From positions 1-44,524 of the IMG/VR virus record IMGVR_UViG_3300036402_000117: a DNA stretch of 44,524 nucleotides, one strand, 5' to 3'. The DNA comes from a virus. This document shows positions 9,116 through 44,524 of the stretch, one piece after another; position 1 is the first letter of the stretch, and each line of letters opens with the position of its first letter. Made by a program: the position numbers and the translations under genes. The notes under the pieces were generated by a model, which saw only the letters and a program-made list of their open reading frames with translations, ran no database searches and was not told the origin of the DNA.

Positions 9116-9359
9116 TCCGAATATCAAGTTGGACGCGACCGTGACCATCACGCTCACGGAGGAGGAGGCGCGCGTCCTCGGCCATCTGTGCGGCTACGAC
9201 CCGGGCGTCATCGTCCAGAACGTTACACGTGAGTTCAGCGTGGATGTCCTGCAGCGGGTGGCGCAGGGCGCGCGCGGTCAGTTGGAGACCGCCGTCGAGC
9301 GGATCGCCGCTGCCCGACAGGCCCTTCAACGGGCACCAGCCCAGCGAGACCTCCGATGA
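9105..9359 (+). CDS. Small hypothetical protein
   Basis: An 84-aa protein from ATG 9105. It has a beta-strand start (KLDATVTITLTEEEARVL) followed by a helical C-terminal half (LQRVAQGARGQLETAVERIAAAR). This is a common shape in short phage accessory proteins. No function is known. Its stop overlaps the start of the DUF4031 gene. Confidence 0.5.
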   Translation: MRADPNIKLDATVTITLTEEEARVLGHLCGYDPGVIVQNVTREFSVDVLQRVAQGARGQLETAVERIAAARQALQRAPAQRDLR

Positions 9360-9718
9360 GCGTCTACGTCGACGACATGCGTGCGCCGTTCGGGCGGATG
9401 ATCATGTGCCACATGATCGCCGACTCGCGCAAGGAGCTGGACGCGATGGCCGATCAGATCGGTGTCGCCCGCCGGTGGATCCAGAAGCCGGGCACCTACG
9501 AGGAGCACTACGACATCGCCCTCTCAGCCAGAAAGAAGGCCGTCGCCGCCGGCGCGGTCGAGGTGCCCCGGCGCGAGCTCGTGCTCCGCACCTGGTTGCG
9601 ATCACCTTACGCGCATCACCGCATCATGGCCGAGCGGAAGCTCGCCGAGTCGGCGGCGTCAGGCGCTCTCGTCAGCCCCGAGTTACATGCGTCGCCATCC
9701 GGTCCACGTCCGCCGTGA
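9356..9718 (+). CDS. DUF4031 domain protein
   Basis: A 120-aa protein with the DUF4031 signature in its first 75 residues: VYVDDMRAPFGRM, MCHMIADS, ELDAMADQIGVARRW, HYDIALSARKKAVAAGAVEV. The family is small and of unknown function, common in phages and their hosts. The C-terminal extension (from about residue 80) is less typical, and its last 47 bases overlap the 3' end of the opposed gene at 9672-10346. This suggests that insertion of that gene altered the original end. Confidence 0.7.
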   Translation: MSVYVDDMRAPFGRMIMCHMIADSRKELDAMADQIGVARRWIQKPGTYEEHYDIALSARKKAVAAGAVEVPRRELVLRTWLRSPYAHHRIMAERKLAESAASGALVSPELHASPSGPRPP

Positions 9719-13149: not shown

Positions 13150-13587
13150 GTGGTTCAGCCGACGACACTCACGCTCTCCCTGCCAGAGCCGCCCTCGATC
13201 AACCAGATGCTGGAGCTGGCCATGAAGCGCACGAGGCGCTCCCGGTCCGGCGGCTGGATGAAACGGGCGGTGCCCGGCATCGTGTACGACCAGGCGCACG
13301 AGGCGTACGACCTCCAGTGCCTCGCCATGGCCCGCACAGCCGATCTCCTGCCACGCTGGGCGCCCTGGCGCCGCTGGGAGATCAGCAGCGTGCACTTTCG
13401 CTTACATGGGCTCCGAGACCTGCCTGAGCTGATGGCCGGCTTGAAGTGGCCCGTCGACTTCCTGGTGGCGCAACGCTACGTCGTCGACGACAGCCCCCGG
13501 GAGCTGCTCGCCGTCTGTCTGCCGACGCAGGCGATCGCTCGAGCGAACCGAGGGGTCACCATCACGATCCGTGAGGTGGCGGCGTGA
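13150..13587 (+). CDS. RusA-like Holliday junction resolvase, divergent
   Basis: A 145-aa protein from GTG 13150, with AGAGGA at 13138-13143. It opens with LTLSLPEPPSINQML, the beta strand and P-x-S-x-N start typical of RusA. A later KWPVDFLVAQRYVVDDSPREL carries acidic residues where RusA has its metal-binding Asp cluster. RusA cuts four-way junctions during phage recombination. The match is to pattern and size (RusA is about 120 aa), and not every catalytic Asp can be assigned, so this is a moderate call. Confidence 0.55.
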   Translation: MVQPTTLTLSLPEPPSINQMLELAMKRTRRSRSGGWMKRAVPGIVYDQAHEAYDLQCLAMARTADLLPRWAPWRRWEISSVHFRLHGLRDLPELMAGLKWPVDFLVAQRYVVDDSPRELLAVCLPTQAIARANRGVTITIREVAA

Positions 13588-13955
13588 TCGCCGCCGCCAC
13601 ACTATCACCCAACGCGGTACCGGCCAGGGCCAGTCGCTACCTCGTGTGGCAGGGCAAGGAGATCCTGCGCGGCGTCGGGTTCCTCGAGGGAGACGTCATC
13701 AAGTGCCCATCGCACCACGTCGTGCGGCCGGACATGCTGCTCCTGGGCGACGGCGTGATCGTGTGTGACAACCGTCCAGGGAAGGGACACGCCGCCTGCG
13801 GGGCGCTGATCTACATCCAGGTGATCGCCGGCCGCGGCGCCACGAAGCGCCTCTGGCTCGCCGACTGCACCCGCGCCGAGATGCGTGAGATCGAACGACT
13901 CGGCCTCGACGCGGATGGCGTCCGCGCCTACTTCGGTGCATCGTTCTCGCGCTAG
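13584..13955 (+). CDS. Hypothetical protein with possible zinc site
   Basis: A 123-aa protein from GTG 13584 (GTGA overlap with the RusA-like gene). The middle has IKCPSHH...VCDNRPGKGHAACG, a Cys/His set that could bind zinc. Beta strands surround it (LVWQGKEILRGVG, LIYIQVIAG). No family is recognised. Confidence 0.5.
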   Translation: MIAAATLSPNAVPARASRYLVWQGKEILRGVGFLEGDVIKCPSHHVVRPDMLLLGDGVIVCDNRPGKGHAACGALIYIQVIAGRGATKRLWLADCTRAEMREIERLGLDADGVRAYFGASFSR

Positions 13956-13990
13956 TCGTCCCCCCTTCGTCCCTCACCAGGTAACGCGCC

Positions 13991-14248
13991 ATGAATCTCT
14001 GTTGGATCATCCCGCTTGCCGGTGGATCCGAGAAGCGTGACGTACAAGCGGCGGACCTGAAGGAGTTGCTGGCTTCCGGCTATCATGAATGGCGCCTCGT
14101 GTGTCATCGAGCGAGCGGCCCGCGAGAGATCACGCTGTACGCCCAAGGCGATGGGAAGACACCGCCGTCTGCGATCGAGGCGGCGAAGGGCGCGCGCCAC
14201 TTCTTCGGTGAGTGCGAGACAAACGAGGTGTTCAGGCCACACACCTGA
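13991..14248 (+). CDS. Small hypothetical protein
   Basis: An 85-aa protein from ATG 13991. It mixes short strands and helices (LKELLASGYHEWRLVCHRASG, REITLYAQGDG). No family or motif is recognised. It is the last gene before the promoter and leader region that precedes the packaging genes. Confidence 0.5.
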   Translation: MNLCWIIPLAGGSEKRDVQAADLKELLASGYHEWRLVCHRASGPREITLYAQGDGKTPPSAIEAAKGARHFFGECETNEVFRPHT

Positions 14249-14260
14249 GCAGCTGACATC

Positions 14261-14290
14261 TTGCGCGCTCGCTCGTCTCTGACGTAGACT
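14261..14290 (+). promoter_or_regulatory. Candidate late promoter before the packaging genes
   Basis: TTGCGC (14261-14266), an 18-base spacer and TAGACT (14285-14290) resemble -35 and -10 boxes, though each is weak. The TAGACTG word recurs at the same place before the second copy of the leader (35417-35423). That repetition is the best support for a real promoter. Confidence 0.4.
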
Positions 14291-14300
14291 GGTCCACATA

Positions 14301-14387
14301 GGGCAGCTCGACCGCCCACCCTAGCCGCCGTACCTGACACCGGCACCACTGACTCCTCTCACGAGGACGTCTGTTGGTGCCGGTGTC
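14301..14387 (+). promoter_or_regulatory. Structured leader, copy 1 (two hairpins joined by a conserved linker)
   Basis: A short hairpin (GGGC 14301-14304 with GCCC 14314-14317) is followed by a linker containing ACCCTAGCCGCCGTA. Then a 13-bp perfect stem (14336-14348 with 14375-14387) is topped by an inner TCCTC/GAGGA stem. A 32-base stretch (14316-14347) matches 35444-35475 with one difference. The A-T closing pair of the main stem is C-G in the other copy, so the stem base pair is conserved although the bases differ. A terminator, attenuator or antitermination site are all possible. Confidence 0.6.
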
Positions 14388-14389
14388 GT

Positions 14390-14794
14390 TTGCGTTTCCG
14401 GGAGCCACGTTCTGATCTGCCGTCTCGCCCCCCGCGCCCGTGCCCGCACCCTGGCTGCCCTCAGCTTACTGATGGCGGCCGCTGCGCTGCCCACCAGCGC
14501 GAGCAGCGCCGAGCCGAGGACGCGTACCGCGGGACCTCGAGCGAGCGTGGCTACGATCCCCGATGGCGACGATACCGCGCAGCCTACCTACGCACTCACC
14601 CGCTCTGCCGTGCCTGCGGAGCTCGCGGACGCGTGGTGGCTGCGACGGTCGTCGACCACATCGTCGCGCACAAGGGCGACCAGGCACTCTTCTGGGACCC
14701 GCAGAACCATCAGCCGCTCTGCCGCTCGTGTCACGGGCGCAAGTCGGCCACCGAGCCAGGCGGACGCGCGCACCGGCCCGAGTGGGCAGGATGA
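14390..14794 (+). CDS. HNH endonuclease of the packaging module
   Basis: An HNH nuclease of about 134 aa, the type encoded beside P27-like terminases. It has Cys pairs at CPHPGC and CAAH, then YDPRWRRYRAAYL, CRAC, and the HNH core TVVDHIVAHKG with Asp89-His90, Asn106 in PQNHQPL, and CRSCHGRK. In HK97-type phages such HNH proteins work with terminase in cutting the cos site. The start is uncertain: TTG 14390 is the first codon of the frame, directly after the leader hairpin, and later alternative codons also exist. Confidence 0.8.
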   Translation: MRFREPRSDLPSRPPRPCPHPGCPQLTDGGRCAAHQREQRRAEDAYRGTSSERGYDPRWRRYRAAYLRTHPLCRACGARGRVVAATVVDHIVAHKGDQALFWDPQNHQPLCRSCHGRKSATEPGGRAHRPEWAG

Positions 14795-14843: not shown

Positions 14844-14944
14844 GGGGGAGGGGGCATCGGATCTCTGGGCCCTCAGCACCTAGCGACCGTTCCCCCGGGG
14901 TTTTGTGCACGTTGTCAAAACTCGACATGGGGGGGTCTGCGCTG

Positions 14945-15415
14945 ATGCCGGGCGGTCGTCCCCGCACCCCGACGCGCGTGCTGCAGCTGCGCGGCACGCA
15001 CCGGAAGGACCGCCACGGCTCGCCGGAGTCGGAACCGCAGTTCGCGGTGCTGACGGAGCTGCCGCCCTGCCCCGGGTTCTTCGACGACGTGGCGAGCTTC
15101 GAGTGGAGCCGTGTCGGCCCGGAGCTCGTTGCGAAGCAGCTGCTCACCGAGATGGACCTCGCGGCGTTCACGCTCTACTGCCTGAACGTCGCTCGCGTCG
15201 TGGCCTGCGAGAAGACGCTGCGCCTCGGGATGACCCTGCTCACCCCGCAGGGCTTCATCCAGGCGCGGCCCGAGGTGTCGATCGCGCGCCAGTGTGGGGT
15301 CGAGGTGCGGAAGTTCGCCCAGGAATTCGGCCTGACGCCGAGCGCCCGGACCCGCGTGCGCGCCCCGGAGACGGCAAAGCCGGCGCCGAAGAGCGGGTGG
15401 GAGGACGTCGGCTGA
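14945..15415 (+). CDS. terS: Terminase small subunit, P27 family
   Basis: A 156-aa DNA-recognition subunit of the packaging motor. The family opening MPGGRPRTPTRVLQLRGTHRK is present, with PPCPGFFDD and then helical segments (FEWSRVGPELVAKQLLTEMDLAAFTLYC) typical of P27-like TerS, and a C-terminal EVRKFAQEFGLTPSAR. ATG 14945 is preceded by a run of seven Gs (14929-14935). It lies downstream of the repeat sites at 14800-14843, which it may bind. The next gene starts on the stop (TGATG). Confidence 0.85.
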   Translation: MPGGRPRTPTRVLQLRGTHRKDRHGSPESEPQFAVLTELPPCPGFFDDVASFEWSRVGPELVAKQLLTEMDLAAFTLYCLNVARVVACEKTLRLGMTLLTPQGFIQARPEVSIARQCGVEVRKFAQEFGLTPSARTRVRAPETAKPAPKSGWEDVG

Positions 15416-15819
15416 TGCCATGGCCCCTTCGTCTCTACCCCTCGCACCAGGCCGCGCGCGACGCCCACGGCTTCGTGCCGGTCGGCGCGATGTGGCCTGT
15501 CGACGTGGATTACGTCGAGCAGTGGCTCAGCGTCTGGGCCGATAATGTCGCGCCGAAGTACCTGCGCGACTGGAAGGACACGCGCCCGCCGATGTTCGTG
15601 AAGCTGCCGGACGGCACGGAGTTCTGTATCGACACCCGCGCGCGGAGCCGCGAACTCGGGCCCCACGGCGAGGGCTGGACCGTCACCGGCGAGCCGCCGG
15701 CCGTCACGCTGGAGCCGTCGATCAATATCGTCGGCAGCTACCACGGCTACATCACCGCGGGCGTCATCACGGACGATTGCGAAGGGCGCACCTTCCCCAA
15801 CGCGCGAGGCTTCGAATGA
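15415..15819 (+). CDS. DUF6527-like protein between terminase genes
   Basis: A 134-aa protein. The C-terminal half has GWTVTGEPPAVTLEPSINIVG, then YHGYITAGVITDDCEG, which resembles the DUF6527 pattern (W-x-V-x-G, PTLxPSI, then a G-containing strand). Proteins of this family are small, phage-linked and uncharacterised. The ATG lies on the terS stop and the end overlaps the terL start, so it is embedded in the packaging operon. Confidence 0.5.
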   Translation: MPWPLRLYPSHQAARDAHGFVPVGAMWPVDVDYVEQWLSVWADNVAPKYLRDWKDTRPPMFVKLPDGTEFCIDTRARSRELGPHGEGWTVTGEPPAVTLEPSINIVGSYHGYITAGVITDDCEGRTFPNARGFE

Positions 15820-17573
15820 CCGAGTCTCGCGACTACGCCGCGATCGCGCTGCAGTATGCGCGCGACGTTGTCGATGGCACCCGTGCCGCGTGCAAGCTGG
15901 CGATCGCCGCATGCCAGCGGCAGCTCGACGACCTCGCCCGCCAGGAGACGCCCGGCTTCCCCTTCCGGTACGAGCCCGCTCGCGGGGCGCGTATCTGCCG
16001 GATGCTCGATCTGCTGCCGCACATCAAGGGGCGGTGGAAGACGAAGACGATCCGCCTCGAGCCGTGGCAGATCTTCATCCTGATGGTCGTGTTCTCGTGG
16101 GCCTGGGCGACCGCGGGCGCCGCGGATCCCGCGCTGCGCGAGAAGGACGGGCTGCGCCGCTTCCGCACCGTCTACGAGGAGGTGCCGCGCAAGAACGCGA
16201 AGTCGACGAAGGCCGCTGGCGTCGGGCTCTACATGCTCGGCCCCGATGGCGAGGAGGGCGCCGAGTGCTACTCGGCGGCCACGACGAAGGACCAGGCGCG
16301 GATCGTGTTCGATGCCGCGCGCGCGATGGCGCGGAAGACCCCGGAATTCTGTGACCGGTTCGGCGTGGAGATCGGCACGCACGCGCTCACGGTCCCGGCC
16401 TCGGAGTCCACCTTCAAGGCGCTCTCGAGCGAAGACAACTCGCTCGACGGACTCAACCCGCACGTCGTCATCATCGATGAGCTCCACGCCCACAAGACGC
16501 GGGGCGTGTACGACGTGCTCGAAACCGCAACCGGCGCGCGCGCGCAGTCGCTCCTCTGGACGGTCACCACCGCGGGGAGCAACCGCGCCGGGATCTGCTA
16601 CGAGGTGCGCACTTACGCCACGAAAGTGCTCGACGGCTCGACCGTCGACGAGACCTTCTTCGCGATCATCTACACGATCGACGAGGGCGACGACTGGACG
16701 GATCCGGCGGTGTGGGCGAAGGCGAACCCGAACTATGGGGTGTCGGTCTTCCCCGACGACATCGCGCGGCTCTGTCGGAAGGCGCAGGAGATGCCGAGCG
16801 CCCAGCCCAACTTCCTCACGAAGCGGCTGAACGTCTGGGTCAACGCCGACAGCCCGTGGATGGACATGCGCCGCTGGGACAAGGGCGCCGTGCCCGGGCT
16901 CTCGATCGACGACTTCGCCGGCGAGGACTGCTTCGTCGCGGTCGATCTGGCGAGCAACGTCGACATCGCGGCCAAGCTCTACCTCTTCCGCCGCCTGGTC
17001 GACGAGACGAACAAGGCCGGCGAGACGGAGCAACACCTCCACTACTACCCCTTCCTCCGCGCCTACCTGCCCGAGGACGTCGTCGAGGAATCCGACAACA
17101 GCCAATACAAGGGCTGGGCGAGCTCCGGTCGCCTGATCACCACGGACGGGAACATCATCGATCAGAATGCCATCCAGGACGATCTCCGGCTGGCGAAGGA
17201 TCAGTACCGGATCCGCGAGGTCGCGTACGACCCGTTCCAGGCGACGAAGTTCGCGACGGAGCTGCTCACCGAAGGGTTCCCCATGGTGGAGATGGGCGCC
17301 ACGGTGAAGAACTTCTCCGCGCCCATGAAGGAGATTGAGGCCTTGGTGCGCGCCGGCCGCCTGCACCACGACGGTGACCCGGTGCTCGCCTGGATGATGT
17401 CGAACGTGGTGTGCCACGTCGACAAGAAGGACAACGTCTTCCCGAACAAGCAGACGGCGAAGAACAAGATCGACGGCGCCGTCGCGCTGATCATGGCGGT
17501 CGGTCGCGCGATGCACGCGCCCGCGCCGGTCCGCAGCGTCTACGAGGATCGCGGCGTGAGGTCCTTCGGATGA
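15816..17573 (+). CDS. terL: Terminase large subunit (packaging ATPase and nuclease)
   Basis: A 585-aa Terminase_1-type protein. The ATPase domain has LEPWQIFI (about 81-88), a Walker A-like loop VPRKNAKST at 123-131, and Walker B VVIIDE at 217-222 followed by HAHK. The nuclease domain carries FVAVDLASNVDIAA, then AYDPFQAT and a late KNKIDGAVALIMA, the Asp residues expected for its metal site. It pumps phage DNA into the procapsid and cuts it at cos or pac ends. The ATG overlaps the previous stop and the end overlaps the portal start (ATGA). Confidence 0.95.
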   Translation: MTESRDYAAIALQYARDVVDGTRAACKLAIAACQRQLDDLARQETPGFPFRYEPARGARICRMLDLLPHIKGRWKTKTIRLEPWQIFILMVVFSWAWATAGAADPALREKDGLRRFRTVYEEVPRKNAKSTKAAGVGLYMLGPDGEEGAECYSAATTKDQARIVFDAARAMARKTPEFCDRFGVEIGTHALTVPASESTFKALSSEDNSLDGLNPHVVIIDELHAHKTRGVYDVLETATGARAQSLLWTVTTAGSNRAGICYEVRTYATKVLDGSTVDETFFAIIYTIDEGDDWTDPAVWAKANPNYGVSVFPDDIARLCRKAQEMPSAQPNFLTKRLNVWVNADSPWMDMRRWDKGAVPGLSIDDFAGEDCFVAVDLASNVDIAAKLYLFRRLVDETNKAGETEQHLHYYPFLRAYLPEDVVEESDNSQYKGWASSGRLITTDGNIIDQNAIQDDLRLAKDQYRIREVAYDPFQATKFATELLTEGFPMVEMGATVKNFSAPMKEIEALVRAGRLHHDGDPVLAWMMSNVVCHVDKKDNVFPNKQTAKNKIDGAVALIMAVGRAMHAPAPVRSVYEDRGVRSFG

Positions 17574-21331: not shown

Positions 21332-21384
21332 TGTTCGTGCTTCTCCTCGCGCTCACACTCGCTCTCTTTCCAGGAGTTTCGTTC

Positions 21385-28369: not shown

Positions 28370-31300
28370 ATGGCGCGCACGCAGACCACCGCCCAAGCCA
28401 ACGCCAACGCCGCGCCGCGCCGGAAGGAGTTCACCCGCGTCTTCGTCCAGAATCCGGACGGCGGGATGACCGACGTCTCCGCGTATCTCGTCTCGGCCGA
28501 TCCTGACGCGTCGATCGACCAGCCGATCGCCGGGATGACCATCCGGTTCCGGCGCGACATGGGCCCGACGCTCTCGCTCTCGCCGCTCCGGACGGACTCC
28601 ACCCTCAACCGCAACGCCGCACTCGCCTACGCGCCACTCCTCGACGTCGCCCGCGCGGTGTACGTCGAGGTCGCGCTGCTCGACCCCTCGGTAGCCACCA
28701 CCCCAGCGGCCGGCGACTGGCAGCGGATCTTCCAGGGCACCTTCGACGTGGTCGACCCGGCCGGCGGGGGCGAGGAGGTGATCTGCACCGCGCGTGATCT
28801 GGGTGCGCGTCTGCAGGATACGACGCTCGAGCAGCCTACCGCGGTGGTCGTCGCCGGCGGCGCGACGCTGTCGATGGAAGCGGCGATCCAGCAGGTGCTC
28901 GACACGGCCTTCGGTGCCGGAGTGATCCCGCTCTACACGCCGACGTCGCCGAGCTACACGGTCACGCGGTTCGGCTATCAGCGCGAGCCGGTCTACGACG
29001 CGATCCTGCGCCTGGTGCAATCGATCGGGTGGGACTGCCGGTTCCTCTGGGACTCCGGCACCTCGAGCTATCGCCTGACGCTCTACAATCCGCCGCGCAC
29101 GAAGACGGTCCCCGACCACACCCTGGGGCCGTCGCGGTACATCAGCCTCCGACGACTCTCGATCAGTCGCGCGAGTGTCCGGAACCGCGTGAAGGTCTTC
29201 TACACGAGCCCGACCTTCGCGCGCGGCGACATCACCGTCAACGATACGGCGAGCCAGGCGCGCTACGGCATGCGCCCGATCGTCATCGAGGAGGCCGGCG
29301 ACAGCGTCATCGACACGCCGGCCGAGGCGACGACGATGGCGAACGCGCTCCTCGCCGATCTGAAGGACCCGAAGGCCGACGGCGAGTGCGAGATGCCGTT
29401 CTTCTGGCCGGTGGAGCTCGGGGACCTGATCCGGTTCTCCACCAATGGCGTCCACTTCAACAGCAACCAGGATCTCGCCGTCGTCGGGATCCGGCACTCG
29501 CTGGTGACAGCGCCTGGTCAGATCTCCAAGACGACGCTCACCCTCCGCGGCTCGCCGGCCGGCGGGTATCGCGCCTGGATGGCTCGGGCGGGCGTGGGCA
29601 TCGGGACGGGGCAGACGATCCAGCCGCCCTGGGTGTCGGTCTCCCCGTTCGACCAGAGCCGCGGGAACGAGAACGTGACGCTGAATGGGGGGGCCGCGAG
29701 CAATGCGCCGGCCACGCCGTTCCAGTGGCGGCAGCGCGAGACGGTGAACGGGGTCGTGGGCGCCTGGTCAGGCTACTCCTCTGCGGTGCTCCCCCAGCTC
29801 ATCACCATTCAGCGTGACCCGTACTACCAGAAGTACACCGAGTTTGAGGTGCTGCAGGCGGACGGCCAGAGTACTCCCGTCGTCTGGCCGACGCTGAGCA
29901 AGATTGGCTTCCTCACCGGCCACTCGACTGGCCATGCGATCGGCCAGGTGACGATCGACGACGGCCGCGCCGGCGCCGGTGGGATGCCGACGCCGCGCGG
30001 ACGGCTGGCCACCGATCCGATCTACGACGCGACGGGCGCGACGCCGCTGATCGACCCGGTGACCCGTCGCATCCAGCTCGGGCTGCTCATGCCTGGTGGA
30101 ACGTCACCCGATGTGACCGAGCGGGGTGGGAACAAGGGCGACACAGCCCTCGACTCGGGCAATTCGATCCTCGCAAGCTATGTCGACTTCTCGCGGTCGT
30201 TCCTGAACAAGCATCTGGGGTACGTCCCCGACGATGCGACGTCGGACCGGCGCTCCGCCACGGCGAATGAAAAGACCGGTGGCTCCCGTGGCTTCACGGC
30301 GATCGACTCCGGCGGCGTCGCGATCGCCGCGGCGCTCGACTTCACGCGGAGCTACACGGGCAAGCACTTCGGCAACGTACCCGACGACGCCACCTCTGAC
30401 CGGCGCGCCGCGACCGCGAATGAGAAGACGGGCGGGGGACGCGGGTTCATCGGTTTTGACTCCTCGAGCATCGTCGTCGCGGGCTCGGTCGACTTCGCCC
30501 GGAGCTACACCGGCAAGCACTTCGGCAACGTCCCGGATGATGCGACCTCAGATCGTCGGGCCGCGACGGCAAATGAGAAGACCGGCGGATCGCGTGGGTT
30601 CAGCGCGATCGACTCCGGCGGCGTGGCCGTAGCGGCGGCAGTGGACCTGTCGCGGGGCTACACGAACAAGCACATGGGGTACATCCCTGACGACGCCACC
30701 TCGGATCGCCGGGCCGTCACCCTCGTGCAGAAGAACGCCGCCACGCGTGCCGATGCGGCGCTCGACGGATCGAACAAGTTGCAGACCGGCGTGACCACTG
30801 GCGCGACGGCTGCCGATGGCGTGGCCGGCATCGAGAGCGGAAAGGGCGCTAAAACGAAGGCGGCGCGAGGCGCTGGACACGCCGGCGCCCAGGTCACCAC
30901 CGACAATACCCGAGGTGGAACGGGCGGGCTGCCAACACCGGGCGCGCGTGTGCACTCGGAACCGATCTACGACGCGACGGGCGCGACGCCGCTGATCGAT
31001 CCGGTGAGGCGGGAGATCCTGAGCGGCCTCGGGATCGGAACCGGTGTCCGGAGCGCCTCTGACTTCGCCGTCAAGAATGCGGCCGGGGCCCTCGCCTTCG
31101 GCACCAACCGCCACAATGACGAGAAGGTCGCGACGAACGGGGTCACGAAGACTTTCGATTTCGACTTCGATCACGCCCCGCAGATCCGAGCCATTCCGCA
31201 ATCGTTCCTGCTGCCGGGGACCAATTCCACGGTGGACCGGAAGATCGAGTTCGCCGCGATCGACATCACGGTGAGCTCCTTCAAGGCGCGCTCCGTGTTG

Positions 31301-31798
31301 ACGACCGGCTCATCCAGTGCTGCGCAGACGGATGATTTCTCGGCATCGCAGAACACCACGCCCGGCAGCGCTGGGGGCGTGGCGCTTCAGGCGCCGGGGG
31401 CCGTGGCCTACTGTCAGCTCGCCAGCGCCACGGCGATCTCGACCAACTACACCGGATACTATGACGTCAACACCGTCGACATGGACCCGGCGAACACCGT
31501 CTACGTGGACTTCTACCGCAACGATTCGGCGGGGTCGACGACGTGGACGCTGATCGGGGGAGCCTCGTACGGATCCGGGATCAACACCACTGGCATCCCG
31601 TTCCCCTTCACCGCGGCGCTTGGCGCGAACTGGGACATCCGGATGGTCATCAGCTACGCCTTCACGCCCAGTCCCACCTTTACCCGGGCGACGATCACCG
31701 CCGATCGCGTCGACTACGACGCGGTCACCGGAGGGACGGAGGTGTCGCTTACCCCCGCCGGAACCGGCGTCCTCTACCAAGCCATGGAGGCCCCGTGA
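28370..31798 (+). CDS. Large tail tip or baseplate hub protein with tandem repeats
   Basis: A 1142-aa protein. Residues 1-400 resemble a phage hub/tail tip domain: KEFTRVFVQNPDGGMTDVSAYLV, IFQGTFDVVDPAGGGEEVICTARDLGARLQD, and an IRLVQSIGWDCRFLWDS-like stretch. About residues 585-790 hold four 51-residue repeats, each with KHxGxxPDDATSDRR. Flanking these is a duplicated segment around PIYDATGATPLIDPV. The C-terminal 250 residues are a beta-rich domain (FDFDFDHAPQIRAIPQSF, TGYYDVNTVDMDPANTVYVDF) that may contact the host. Repeats in such proteins often form a stalk and vary between strains. Confidence 0.8.
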   Translation: MARTQTTAQANANAAPRRKEFTRVFVQNPDGGMTDVSAYLVSADPDASIDQPIAGMTIRFRRDMGPTLSLSPLRTDSTLNRNAALAYAPLLDVARAVYVEVALLDPSVATTPAAGDWQRIFQGTFDVVDPAGGGEEVICTARDLGARLQDTTLEQPTAVVVAGGATLSMEAAIQQVLDTAFGAGVIPLYTPTSPSYTVTRFGYQREPVYDAILRLVQSIGWDCRFLWDSGTSSYRLTLYNPPRTKTVPDHTLGPSRYISLRRLSISRASVRNRVKVFYTSPTFARGDITVNDTASQARYGMRPIVIEEAGDSVIDTPAEATTMANALLADLKDPKADGECEMPFFWPVELGDLIRFSTNGVHFNSNQDLAVVGIRHSLVTAPGQISKTTLTLRGSPAGGYRAWMARAGVGIGTGQTIQPPWVSVSPFDQSRGNENVTLNGGAASNAPATPFQWRQRETVNGVVGAWSGYSSAVLPQLITIQRDPYYQKYTEFEVLQADGQSTPVVWPTLSKIGFLTGHSTGHAIGQVTIDDGRAGAGGMPTPRGRLATDPIYDATGATPLIDPVTRRIQLGLLMPGGTSPDVTERGGNKGDTALDSGNSILASYVDFSRSFLNKHLGYVPDDATSDRRSATANEKTGGSRGFTAIDSGGVAIAAALDFTRSYTGKHFGNVPDDATSDRRAATANEKTGGGRGFIGFDSSSIVVAGSVDFARSYTGKHFGNVPDDATSDRRAATANEKTGGSRGFSAIDSGGVAVAAAVDLSRGYTNKHMGYIPDDATSDRRAVTLVQKNAATRADAALDGSNKLQTGVTTGATAADGVAGIESGKGAKTKAARGAGHAGAQVTTDNTRGGTGGLPTPGARVHSEPIYDATGATPLIDPVRREILSGLGIGTGVRSASDFAVKNAAGALAFGTNRHNDEKVATNGVTKTFDFDFDHAPQIRAIPQSFLLPGTNSTVDRKIEFAAIDITVSSFKARSVLTTGSSSAAQTDDFSASQNTTPGSAGGVALQAPGAVAYCQLASATAISTNYTGYYDVNTVDMDPANTVYVDFYRNDSAGSTTWTLIGGASYGSGINTTGIPFPFTAALGANWDIRMVISYAFTPSPTFTRATITADRVDYDAVTGGTEVSLTPAGTGVLYQAMEAP
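30125..30736 (+). repeat. Four tandem 153-bp repeats inside the tail tip gene
   Basis: Units start at 30125, 30278, 30431 and 30584, each coding for 51 aa. The middle two copies are the most alike; the first and last have drifted. All carry PDDATSDRR near the same place. The duplicated segment at 30017-30062 and 30962-31007 matches at 45 of 46 bases and brackets the array. Copy number is likely to vary by slippage or recombination. Confidence 0.9.
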
Positions 31799-33441: not shown

Positions 33442-34794
33442 ATGGCACTCTCTCGATCCTCCGTCCTGCACTACTGGTCCAGCCGGTACGGCCCGCTCCC
33501 GGTCATTGGTGGCAAGCCGGTACACTCGCGCAACTCGGCTGGTTTCGTCGCCGACGGGCGCGGCGAGTGGTACAACGCCATCATCAACACGCCGCGCTTC
33601 GCGACGGAGGTTGACAAGTCGACCCCGGCGAACGAGCGGCGGGCGATGCTTCTCCTGGAAGGCGCCCGACCCAATCAGCTCACGCGCAGTAACGATCTCT
33701 CCCATGCGGCGTGGACGACCGCATCCGGCACGGGCACCGCGTCGCTCAACGCCATCGGGATGGACGGTTCGCCGAACGCCGCGACCACGCTGACCGATAG
33801 CGATGCCGCCGGCTTCTACGGCCGTTATAACTCGGTGACCATCGCCAACGACGGCGACACCCTTGCCGCGCGATTCTGGATTCTCAAGGACAGCAACACC
33901 ACTCGCTTCCCGATCCTCGTCTTCGGCCTGCAGGGTGGCGTGACGCCAAAGACGCAGGACATCATGCTCAACACCTCAACCGGCGCCATCGCGTCCAGCT
34001 CGATCTCCGGGGGCGGCAGTGCCGGGGCGTATGCCGTGTTCGACGATGGATTGTACTGGCAGATCGTAATCCACCTGCAGAATAACGCGACCGGCAATAC
34101 GACCGCGCGCGCGTCGGTGTACCCGGCAGGCGGATCGGTGATGGGCACGGAAGCGGCCGCTTCGACCGGCAGTTGCGTCGTCGGCAACGTACACGTCGAG
34201 CCCAACGCGACAGCAGGCATCACGCGCGGCACGCCGATCTTCACCGCTGCGGGCGCCGCAAGCCGCTCGGCTGACAGCTTCTACTGGAACTTCCCGGCGC
34301 CACCACAGGCGATGATGATCCACTCTCGGCATGTCGAGAGTGGCGGCGATTCGGCACGCCGCATATTCGAGATCAGCAGCGCCACTGAGACCGGCCCGGT
34401 CTTCGCCGCCTTTATCTCCGGCGGTTTCTATGCCATCCAGCACTACAACGGGGTTGGATCGGTCACGCAGACCCTTGGCGCGGCGCCGGCCCTGGGCGAT
34501 ACGGTCGACTTGGCCGCGCTCCTCACGCCGACCGGGCAGGTGCAACTCATTCAGTCGATCAACGGCGCGGCCGTGAGCACCTCCGCGCTATCCGGTGCGC
34601 TCTCTCTCCCGGCCGCGTGGGGAGATACGAAGCTCTGGCTCGGCGCCGTGGGTGCCGTTGCCAGCTCATTCGGGCTGAATCGGCATGCAGAGATTCGCGC
34701 AGTTAAGTACGGCGACGTAGCGGCCGTGACGTCGCAGGGCATCATGGACGAGCTCCGCGGGTTCGAGCTCGGCCCCAACGGAGATCAGCTCTAA
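33442..34794 (+). CDS. Tail fibre or receptor-binding protein
   Basis: A 450-aa protein. It contains LLLEGARPNQLTRSNDLSHAAWT, a motif shared with many phage fibres and carbohydrate-binding tail proteins. Beta-sandwich segments follow (AARFWILKDSNTTRFPILVFGLQGG, YWQIVIHLQNNATGNTTARASVYPAGG) and a later jelly-roll-like SRSADSFYWNFPAPPQAMMIHSRH. It probably decides host binding, together with the tail tip gene. Its end overlaps the next start (TAATG). Confidence 0.7.
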   Translation: MALSRSSVLHYWSSRYGPLPVIGGKPVHSRNSAGFVADGRGEWYNAIINTPRFATEVDKSTPANERRAMLLLEGARPNQLTRSNDLSHAAWTTASGTGTASLNAIGMDGSPNAATTLTDSDAAGFYGRYNSVTIANDGDTLAARFWILKDSNTTRFPILVFGLQGGVTPKTQDIMLNTSTGAIASSSISGGGSAGAYAVFDDGLYWQIVIHLQNNATGNTTARASVYPAGGSVMGTEAAASTGSCVVGNVHVEPNATAGITRGTPIFTAAGAASRSADSFYWNFPAPPQAMMIHSRHVESGGDSARRIFEISSATETGPVFAAFISGGFYAIQHYNGVGSVTQTLGAAPALGDTVDLAALLTPTGQVQLIQSINGAAVSTSALSGALSLPAAWGDTKLWLGAVGAVASSFGLNRHAEIRAVKYGDVAAVTSQGIMDELRGFELGPNGDQL

Positions 34795-35390
34795 TGCACC
34801 GCATCATCCACACGCTCCGGCAGATCGCCGCGGCCGACCTCCCGACCGTTACGTCGCTCGACGGCACCACGCGGACGATGACGGCCGGCGAGCTGCTCAA
34901 CGTCGGGATCGTCCACCTCCACGACGACGTGTACGACTGCGTCGAGCAGCACCGGAGCGACGACGACGAGGCCGCGGCGACCGGCGTGCGGACCTGGGCG
35001 CCGCACGGCGAGCCGCTGCCTGGGACGCCGATCAGCGCCGGCTCGCACCGGGAGCGCTACGCCCGTGTCCCGGCGGAGCATGCGCCCAAGGTGTTCCGAG
35101 CGCAGGTCATCCGCTCCGCTGATCCGGCGGCACCCGCCGCGACGATCGTCACGGCGAACCTCACCGAGGTGGCGACCGCGATCGCGGAGTACGTCGGCGA
35201 CGTCTCCGGCGCGCCGCTCGTCGATCTCTCTGGCCCGGCGGCTGTGCTCAAGGAGGCGCAGCGCCTGGTCCAGATCCCTGACAACGGGATCGACCGACAC
35301 GTCGTTCCGATGGCCACCGTCGACCCCGGCGATGTCGTCGAAGCCGACCGGATCATCCCGCATCGCTGGCACGGGGAGTCCCACCGCTAA
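34794..35390 (+). CDS. Hypothetical protein after the fibre gene
   Basis: A 198-aa protein from ATG 34794. The N-terminal stretch (RIIHTLRQIAAADLPTVTSLDGTTRTMTAGELLNVGIVHLHDDVYD) is mixed helix and strand, and the rest is Ala/Pro/Asp-rich. A tail-fibre assembly or accessory role is only suggested by location. The gene is the last of the tail block. Confidence 0.5.
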   Translation: MHRIIHTLRQIAAADLPTVTSLDGTTRTMTAGELLNVGIVHLHDDVYDCVEQHRSDDDEAAATGVRTWAPHGEPLPGTPISAGSHRERYARVPAEHAPKVFRAQVIRSADPAAPAATIVTANLTEVATAIAEYVGDVSGAPLVDLSGPAAVLKEAQRLVQIPDNGIDRHVVPMATVDPGDVVEADRIIPHRWHGESHR

Positions 35391-35416
35391 CGCTGGCTCG
35401 TTTGAAACACCCGTAG

Positions 35417-35511
35417 TAGACTGAGACCAGGCCCGCTGACGGGCCACCCTAGCCGCCGTATCTGACACCGGCACCCAACGACCCTCCCCAGGGTCGACGG
35501 GTGCCGTCGTC
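35417..35511 (+). promoter_or_regulatory. Structured leader with promoter-like word, copy 2, before the lysis genes
   Basis: TAGACT (35417-35422) is followed by a hairpin GCCCG/CGGGC (35431-35443), the conserved linker with ACCCTAGCCGCCGTA, and a stem GACACCGGCACCC (35464-35476) with GGGTGCCGTCGTC (499-511 of the same line), 11 of 13 pairs. An inner CGACCCT/AGGGTCG stem is present. The 32-base core at 35444-35475 matches 14316-14347 with one difference. See copy 1 for possible roles. Confidence 0.6.
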
Positions 35512-35541
35512 GTTTCTGGACCTTCTCCGGACGAACCGCCG

Positions 35542-35877
35542 ATGACGCTGCTCTCCCTCCTCCAAACCGCCCAGGCTGTCGCCGTGGCTGCGCAGGATTC
35601 GGCTGCGGGCGACTACCTCGTGCGCGGCGCCATCGCGCTCATCCTCGGGCTCCAGGCGTGGAGCATCCGGACGGTCAACAAGACGCGCGAGGACCTGGGC
35701 GTGATCACCCAGGCGCTCTTCGGCCGCCGCGGTGACAATGGCATCGAGCGCACGGTCGAAGCGCACGGGGCCGAGCTCGTCGACCACGACCGGCGGCTCA
35801 CACAGAGCGAGGGTCGCCTTGACCGGATCGATGTCGAGCGACGGCCGTTGGCTCCGCATCGCGGAGGGATCACATGA
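35542..35877 (+). CDS. Membrane-anchored coiled-coil protein, lysis block
   Basis: A 111-aa protein from ATG 35542. A membrane helix (YLVRGAIALILGLQAWSI, about 25-42) is followed by a charged coil (RTVNKTREDLGVITQALFG...ELVDHDRRLTQSEGRLDRID). This layout resembles XhlA-like or holin-associated phage proteins. It is the first gene after the second structured leader and precedes a candidate holin and the endolysin. Role in lysis is inferred from order. Confidence 0.6.
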   Translation: MTLLSLLQTAQAVAVAAQDSAAGDYLVRGAIALILGLQAWSIRTVNKTREDLGVITQALFGRRGDNGIERTVEAHGAELVDHDRRLTQSEGRLDRIDVERRPLAPHRGGIT

Positions 35878-36170
35878 TCGACCTCCGTCGCCTCCTCGGC
35901 CTCCTTGCCTCGTTCCTCATCGGCCTTGGCCTCATCTGGTACGCCCACGAGCACCTCGAGCGGGAGCTCGCGCGGCCCGAGCGCTCGATGGCCCTGCTCG
36001 CGATCTACGGCGTGATCGGGCTGCTCGGCATGCTGATCGTGCCGACGATCCGTGACCGCGTGATCCCCGCCGCAAAGACCGGCTTCACCCTCGCGAGCCT
36101 GGGCCGCCGCGCGTATGACGGCAAGGCGGTGGTCGACGACGCGCCTCCTTCCAAGGACAGTGCCCCATGA
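35874..36170 (+). CDS. Putative holin
   Basis: A 98-aa protein from ATG 35874 with two membrane helices (LLGLLASFLIGLGLIWYAH, and MALLAIYGVIGLLGMLIVP) and a charged, soluble C-terminus. Size and two-helix plan fit a class II-like holin. It lies immediately upstream of the endolysin. Holins are diverse, so the call rests on topology and position. Confidence 0.6.
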   Translation: MIDLRRLLGLLASFLIGLGLIWYAHEHLERELARPERSMALLAIYGVIGLLGMLIVPTIRDRVIPAAKTGFTLASLGRRAYDGKAVVDDAPPSKDSAP

Positions 36171-36691
36171 TCCCCGCCGAACTGCTTCGGACGGAGTCCT
36201 CGCTCGTCATCAACATCCTGCAGGCCTCGACGGACCTCATCGCGGTCTGCGAGGATCCGCCGGGATCCAACCGCGGCGAGGACATCGACGCCTGGGCGAA
36301 GAAGTTCGGGAGCCCGCCCGGCTCCTACTGGTGCGCGCTCATGCAGGGCGAGATCGCCGATCGTTCGCACTCCTGGCGGCCGACCCACGACGTCGGCAGC
36401 TGTGACGAGTGGTACCTGCAGGGCACGAAGGCGGGCCTCCTGATCATGGACCCGCGGCCTGGAGCGATCGTGCTGTACACGAACGGCACGCGCCTCGAGG
36501 GCGGGCGGTACGACGGCCGCCTCGACGCGACGCACATCGGCCGGGTGATCCGCGCGACGCCGGTGCCGATGGCGATCGAAGGCAATACCACGCTGGGCAA
36601 GTACGACCGGAATGGGTTCGTCTCCACGCTGAAGCAGATCGAGAAAGCGCGAGTGCTCTGCTACCTGGCCCCGGCGCCGAGGGCCGCATGA
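36167..36691 (+). CDS. Endolysin, CHAP/NlpC-P60-like peptidase
   Basis: A 174-aa protein with the Cys-His arrangement of amidohydrolase endolysins: Cys56 in GSYWCALMQGEIAD, then CDEWYLQG, PRPGAIVLY, and His123 in DATHIGRVI followed by EGNTTLG. These enzymes cut peptidoglycan peptide bonds. There is no signal peptide, so it needs the upstream holin to reach the wall. It overlaps both neighbours by 4 bases. Confidence 0.8.
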   Translation: MIPAELLRTESSLVINILQASTDLIAVCEDPPGSNRGEDIDAWAKKFGSPPGSYWCALMQGEIADRSHSWRPTHDVGSCDEWYLQGTKAGLLIMDPRPGAIVLYTNGTRLEGGRYDGRLDATHIGRVIRATPVPMAIEGNTTLGKYDRNGFVSTLKQIEKARVLCYLAPAPRAA

Positions 36692-38188: not shown

Positions 38189-38265
38189 TGTCATCTCAGG
38201 CAGTCGTTCGATCCCGCCGCATCGCGAGACCCGAGGAGAGTCTACGCTGCAGCGTCAGCGGGGCG

Positions 38266-44384: not shown

Positions 44385-44424
44385 AACAGCACTTTCCCCC
44401 TCACCGTGCCCCACGATGGGACAT

Positions 44425-44524
44425 GATTCACATGTGCGGCTCAGATTGCCGCACATCATTGCCGCTCGCGCTGCACTCGGTAATTCCAAGCCGACGCGCG
44501 CAGGCGGTCGGGCAAATATAGCCC
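44425..44524. repeat. attR: right copy of the prophage-flanking direct repeat
   Basis: Identical to 119-218 and extending to the last base of the window. The core inverted repeat is at 44432-44440 and 44448-44456 around TCAGATT. The integrase gene ends 75 bases upstream. The outer host flank is not visible. Confidence 0.85.

Follow-up and report, generated by a model that had tools for sequence, protein, structure and literature searches.

In the lambdoid phages lambda, 21 and 82 the late promoter pR' is followed by a short leader, a terminator and then the late genes, and the Q factor gives read-through (PMC6606751). At PalpB of Pseudomonas aeruginosa the promoter-loaded antiterminator AlpA passes a downstream intrinsic terminator before the lysis genes; its binding element GGGACG is located between the -35 and the -10, and a sigma-dependent pause is involved (PMC9371919). 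In Caulobacter, a high-GC host, GafZ acts by anti-termination and lets the phage-type late genes of the GTA cluster be transcribed through GC-rich repeat terminators (PMC11150451). Phage HK022 contains two related RNA elements of two hairpins each, putL and putR (PMC9378689), which follow early promoters, act in cis on distant terminators and have no terminator of their own. In cluster K mycobacteriophages repeated inverted repeats (ESAS) precede gene starts, and their left arm is better conserved than the right one (PMC3203893).

Here we analyzed a leader of about 110 bases that is present twice, both times on the + strand, in IMG/VR record IMGVR_UViG_3300036402_000117 (44,524 bases, 68% G+C); this whole stretch of DNA is called the window. 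The order of box, short leader, terminator-like hairpin and late gene resembles the lambdoid Q leaders, whereas here two such cassettes are found in one genome and no Q protein is recognisable. With AlpA and PalpB the elements share a putative intrinsic terminator located downstream of the box and, in copy 2, before presumed lysis genes. The likeness to GafZ is looser: unlike here, the terminator of that system comes after the first gene, and its element between -10 and -35 is palindromic. ESAS occur in many copies with 17-bp arms and a 13-bp start-associated sequence, in contrast to the two copies with a terminator-like tail seen here. The element itself is an orphan; its mechanism class is already known and the arrangement is familiar from other phages.

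By its gene content the window is a temperate tailed phage, since Sak4-like, helicase, primase, HNH, TerS, TerL, portal, protease, major capsid and integrase genes are present. A direct repeat of 114 nt is found at both ends (105-218 and 44411-44524, 96% alike), with the integrase gene immediately before one copy, and these end repeats are likely the prophage attL and attR. Close kin are lacking from the collections scanned: the nearest TerL relatives show 57% identity, and for the capsid protein the best matches, to Bradyrhizobium and Azospirillum phage capsids, reach 42-49%. Searches of these collections with the MCP, the primase, the product of gene 34794-35390 and the endolysin-like protein yielded no relatives.

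The two elements almost fill intergenic gaps of 141 and 151 nt. Local alignment of the two gaps matched them end to end (14266-14391 and 35391-35515), from CGCTnGCTCGTnT at 14266 and 35391 to GTCGTTT at 14391 and 35515. The alignment is better than that of shuffled sequences both upstream (p 0.004) and downstream (p 0.03) of the core. TAGACTG, a small hairpin, a 32-base core, a two-tier stem and GTCGTTT follow each other in the same order in both copies:

14266-14278, + strand: shared upstream motif CGCT[C/G]GCTCGT[C/T]T of copy 1, from the gap alignment, 6 nt from the TAGACT box
14285-14291, + strand: TAGACTG, -10-like box and putative promoter of copy 1, assigned by sequence
14301-14317, + strand: small hairpin GGGC(9)GCCC of copy 1, -6.8 kcal/mol
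14316-14347, + strand: invariant 32-base core of copy 1
14324-14344, + strand: possible alternative, antiterminator-like hairpin in the core of copy 1, weak, from stepwise folding
14335-14388, + strand: two-tier, intrinsic-terminator-like stem of copy 1, followed by TTTGCGTTT, -39.6 kcal/mol, z -7.2
35391-35403, + strand: shared upstream motif of copy 2, from the gap alignment, 13 nt from the box
35417-35423, + strand: TAGACTG, -10-like box and putative promoter of copy 2, assigned by sequence
35430-35445, + strand: small hairpin GGCCCG(4)CGGGCC of copy 2, strong, -12.7 kcal/mol
35444-35475, + strand: invariant core of copy 2, identical to copy 1 at 31/32 bases
35452-35472, + strand: possible alternative hairpin in the core of copy 2, weak, from stepwise folding
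35463-35512, + strand: two-tier, intrinsic-terminator-like stem of copy 2, followed by TTTCT, -34.4 kcal/mol, z -4.5

The z-scores of the two-tier stems were computed against dinucleotide shuffles. The core, searched as a 31-mer with Y, occurs exactly twice in the window at up to three mismatches and not at all in 100 shuffles. TAGACTG is likewise found only twice in the window, both times inside the elements, and the same holds for GTAGACTG, in which the TAGACT box is conserved together with one flanking base per side. A sequence-only reading of this DNA had described an element at 14261-14387 and 35417-35511 sharing TAGACTG, a hairpin, a core and a long stem; the duplication was confirmed, and the homologous unit proved slightly larger than these coordinates. 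With just two copies, a mobile repeat is unlikely. A third TAGACT is located at 38239-38244 on the - strand, just 3' of a repressor-like operon, and lacks both the G and the core.

Copy 1 is preceded by gene 13991-14248 and copy 2 by gene 34794-35390. Downstream of copy 1 are the HNH, TerS and TerL genes, downstream of copy 2 a holin-like, lysis-like cassette:

14390-14794, + strand: HNH endonuclease, first gene after copy 1 (PHROG 144, E 3e-37)
14903-15415, + strand: terminase small subunit (Pfam Terminase_4, E 1.5e-21)
15777-17573, + strand: terminase large subunit (PHROG 9, E 9e-173)
35542-36691, + strand: presumed lysis cassette encoding proteins of 111, 98 and 174 aa, assigned by anatomy only

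Neither ATG nor GTG is present at the expected start of the HNH gene (14390-14419). Translation probably starts at CTG 14417 rather than at TTG 14390, since the former gives (M)PSRPPRPCPHPGC, the usual HNH N-terminus, and has GGGAG upstream; the tail of copy 1 would end about 26 nt before this start, a distance similar to that in copy 2. In the cassette after copy 2 the 98-aa protein has two hydrophobic segments and the 174-aa protein is endolysin-like by eye. The block is likely a lysis block, an assignment that stays unproven because none of the three proteins has a family match above the cut-off.

The sequence-only reading had further stated that the stems are kept while the loops differ. 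This holds for the upper tier, which differs in sequence between the copies and is nevertheless paired in both, but the lower stem has 14/14 pairs in copy 1 and only 12/14 in copy 2 (A.C and C.U mismatches). The change of the closing pair from A-T in one copy to C-G in the other is real on a pair-by-pair check and is the one compensatory change in the lower stem. The count of compensatory change is no better than chance, being equalled in 264/500 shuffles; with one double change against two broken pairs, selection on RNA structure, as claimed earlier, is weakly founded. Compensatory change beyond chance among homologues, as in a structured RNA family, was not seen in just the two copies. The two pairs are broken in copy 2 because the 5' arm belongs to the sequence-conserved core while the 3' arm has drifted. 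Conservation is best upstream of the hairpin and, within it, in the 5' arm only: both copies retain TAGACTG and about 19 bases that are unpaired, and the loop and the 3' arm have diverged. These 19 nt lie between the two hairpins and are unpaired in the terminator fold of both copies. Selection for the sequence of the core, 5' arm included, would account for this conservation better than selection for pairing alone.

To compare the stems with the rest of the phage, all hairpins on both strands of the whole 44.5 kb were scored with the d'Aubenton-Carafa formula, in which the score d combines the hairpin energy per base and a weighted T content over the 15 bases that follow. Copy 1 ranked fourth (d 26.5) and copy 2 sixth (d 22.8) in the window. 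The terminator-like score is limited to the + strand in both cases, the T-rich tail being one-sided, which excludes a DNA palindrome as the main reading, and both hairpins are located shortly 5' of the next gene. Other high-scoring intergenic candidates on the + strand are found at 251, close to the left end, and at 21333, directly behind the major capsid gene. The U-tracts are short (UUUGCGUUU in copy 1, UUUCU in copy 2), and a simpler motif scan for terminators picked up only a portion of copy 2 and gave no call at copy 1. The results support hairpin 2 as a putative intrinsic terminator, located in both copies between the box and the first gene, as in a promoter-proximal attenuator.

Two stems of about 20 pairs each would also suit RNase III processing sites or 5' stabilising hairpins of the late messages. 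Such a function leaves the T-rich tail, present on the 3' side only, and the conserved unpaired core unexplained, and we consider it very improbable.

The main and serious rival to an attenuator is that duplication gave rise to a pair of ordinary terminators at operon boundaries, which end the upstream transcripts (13991-14248 and 34794-35390) with no regulated read-through; TAGACTG would then be a relic of a downstream promoter or would have been copied along with the rest. Such terminators would be expected to score well and to lie at gene boundaries, as both sites do, the candidates at 251 and 21333 indicate that this phage does place terminators between genes, and the promoter is unproven, the consensus scans being empty at both sites. 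The pattern of conservation described above, with the box and the unpaired bases kept and the loop and 3' arm drifting, argues against it, and altogether we regard plain terminators as possible but rather unlikely. The 19-nt unpaired stretch favours an attenuator, since a plain terminator would not need conservation there.

TAGACT matches TAnnnT, and the TAGACTG box may be a promoter element. A scan for consensus promoters found none at either element nor elsewhere in the window, and no -35 was evident upstream of either box. The spacing between the shared upstream motif and the box differs, with 6 nt in copy 1 against 13 nt in copy 2; thus, the motif is neither a fixed -35 nor a binding site at fixed spacing, and a Q- or AlpA-type binding element, which sits at fixed spacing between -35 and -10, was not found. 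Neither a GGGACG-type element nor the pause of the AlpA system was detected in the phage elements. The -10-like pause sequence that Q- and AlpA-type leaders have early in the transcribed region is likewise missing: in the 30 nt after the box no TANNNT or NANNAT is present in either copy.

We favour, at an even chance, the reading of the duplicated late-gene leader as a promoter-proximal attenuator that is used twice. RNA polymerase would initiate some 6-7 nt past TAGACT, around 14297 and 35429, transcribe the small hairpin and then the invariant core, and meet the intrinsic terminator about 90 nt downstream, right before the first gene of the late block. Early or in lysogeny most transcripts would end at this terminator; late in infection a phage factor would act via the shared sequence and cause read-through at both sites, releasing packaging and structure together with lysis. 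A shared attenuator had been one of the suggestions of the sequence-only reading and is the best one, with both hairpins among the top terminator candidates, on the + strand only and before the next gene. It is favoured by the end-to-end homology, which includes the TAGACTG box and extends beyond the hairpin alone, by the position of both stems among the top six terminator-like sites, on the + strand only, by the location of both copies directly before late or presumed late blocks, and by a core hairpin that excludes the base of the terminator during stepwise folding in both copies. Against it stand the missing consensus promoter and -35, the variable spacing of the upstream motif (6 versus 13 nt), the short U-tracts, the weak core hairpin and the failure to recognise an antiterminator or a homologue.

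The leader contains no start codon before the terminator in either copy, which rules out ribosome-mediated (leader-peptide) attenuation. No antiterminator protein was recognised in the phage, and the upstream genes at 13150-14248, candidates for a Q- or AlpA-type protein, gave no family match. Structure models of two proteins, one of them encoded at 13584-13955, were unusable (pLDDT 31 and 36).

RAT/terminator attenuators of the BglG/LicT family have a conserved core of about 30 nt that folds as an antiterminator and overlaps the 5' arm of the terminator. The phage core could fold in this way: when the RNA was extended stepwise it first formed, in both copies, GCCG(CC)GU(AYCUG)AC(AC)CGGC, a hairpin incompatible with the base of the terminator. 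However, the hairpin is weak (-6.1 kcal/mol), core shuffles fold as well in 13/200 cases for copy 1 and 16/200 for copy 2, so that it is not significant, and no BglG-type protein was recognised. A RAT-like switch is therefore just a possibility, given this energy and the shuffles that equal it. More specifically, the core may be the recognition site for a phage antiterminator at two attenuators, maybe holding the antiterminator hairpin over the 5' arm and synchronising packaging and lysis in trans; we regard this as doubtful.

If the attenuator reading is true, the same promoter-leader-terminator cassette controls two separate late blocks of the phage and offers a two-site system for finding an antiterminator in a phage in which neither Q nor AlpA is recognisable; otherwise both sites are just ordinary terminators. 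Since the element is without known relatives, its value for now is that of a local hypothesis.

The sequence-only reading had also compared the element to the antitermination sites of HK022, in which the RNA binds polymerase and confers resistance to terminators further downstream. Two related copies with two hairpins each do recall putL and putR (PMC9378689), hairpin 1 being weak in copy 1, where it competes with UAGGG/CCCUA. But the second hairpin is itself terminator-like, the sites precede late and not early blocks, hairpin 1 is poorly conserved, and neither a sequence family match nor a sequence relation to put was found. The comparison is unsupported given the late location and the terminator-like hairpin 2, and a put-like function is the least probable of the readings considered here.

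The two copies could also be genes whose product is a trans-acting small phage RNA of about 90 nt with its end at the terminator, because a -10-like box, a structured stretch of about 90 nt and a terminator are the shape of an sRNA gene as well. When the core was searched for antisense pairing to the phage genes, the longest match was 10 nt, and no complementary target of more than 10 nt is present in the phage. Rfam contains no match for the element. An sRNA is improbable on these grounds.

Searches for homologues returned no occurrence of the full core pattern in viral_contigs and none of a relaxed core in genome_contigs. A 16-mer of the core was found in four stretches that have neither hairpin nor promoter box and were taken as chance, and a gapped pattern of TAGACTG and core matched once, inside an ORF of 948 aa. 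Comparison with phages by blastn gave just matches with E 2 to 5. The element is absent from the TerL relatives (80 loci, best 57%), and none of 19 relatives, some with little upstream sequence, showed a comparable duplicated leader 5' of TerL; the gap-based search for duplicated leaders is insensitive, since even the pair in the window escaped it. About 1.2 Mb of relatives, scanned with a covariance model, gave nothing convincing, the best match (18 bits) lying inside a methyltransferase gene of a Bradyrhizobium phage. The covarying homologues in related phages that the first reading had proposed to look for were thus not found; with kin at about 57% TerL identity their absence is weak evidence. 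With close kin of the phage lacking from the collections, missing homologues say little on function, and evolution cannot yet test the structure of the leader.

One TerL relative (G002) carries 5' of its terminase a 49-nt repeat, 96% identical and 1.7 kb apart (L097, 17632-17680 and 19317-19365), which is unrelated to the leader described here. At the left end of the window, the 104 bases left of the repeat at 105-218 resemble by eye, on the - strand, the first part of a gene for an electron-transfer flavoprotein beta subunit; the stretch is too short for a Pfam match. The single near-identity match to named phages is at 9353-9484 (81% over 132 bp, phage Simon from raw sewage) and sits within a DUF4031 gene. 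In the 1142-aa gene 28370-31798, which probably encodes a tail protein, three tandem units of 153 nt (30208-30721, 74-76% alike) correspond to protein repeats of 51 residues.
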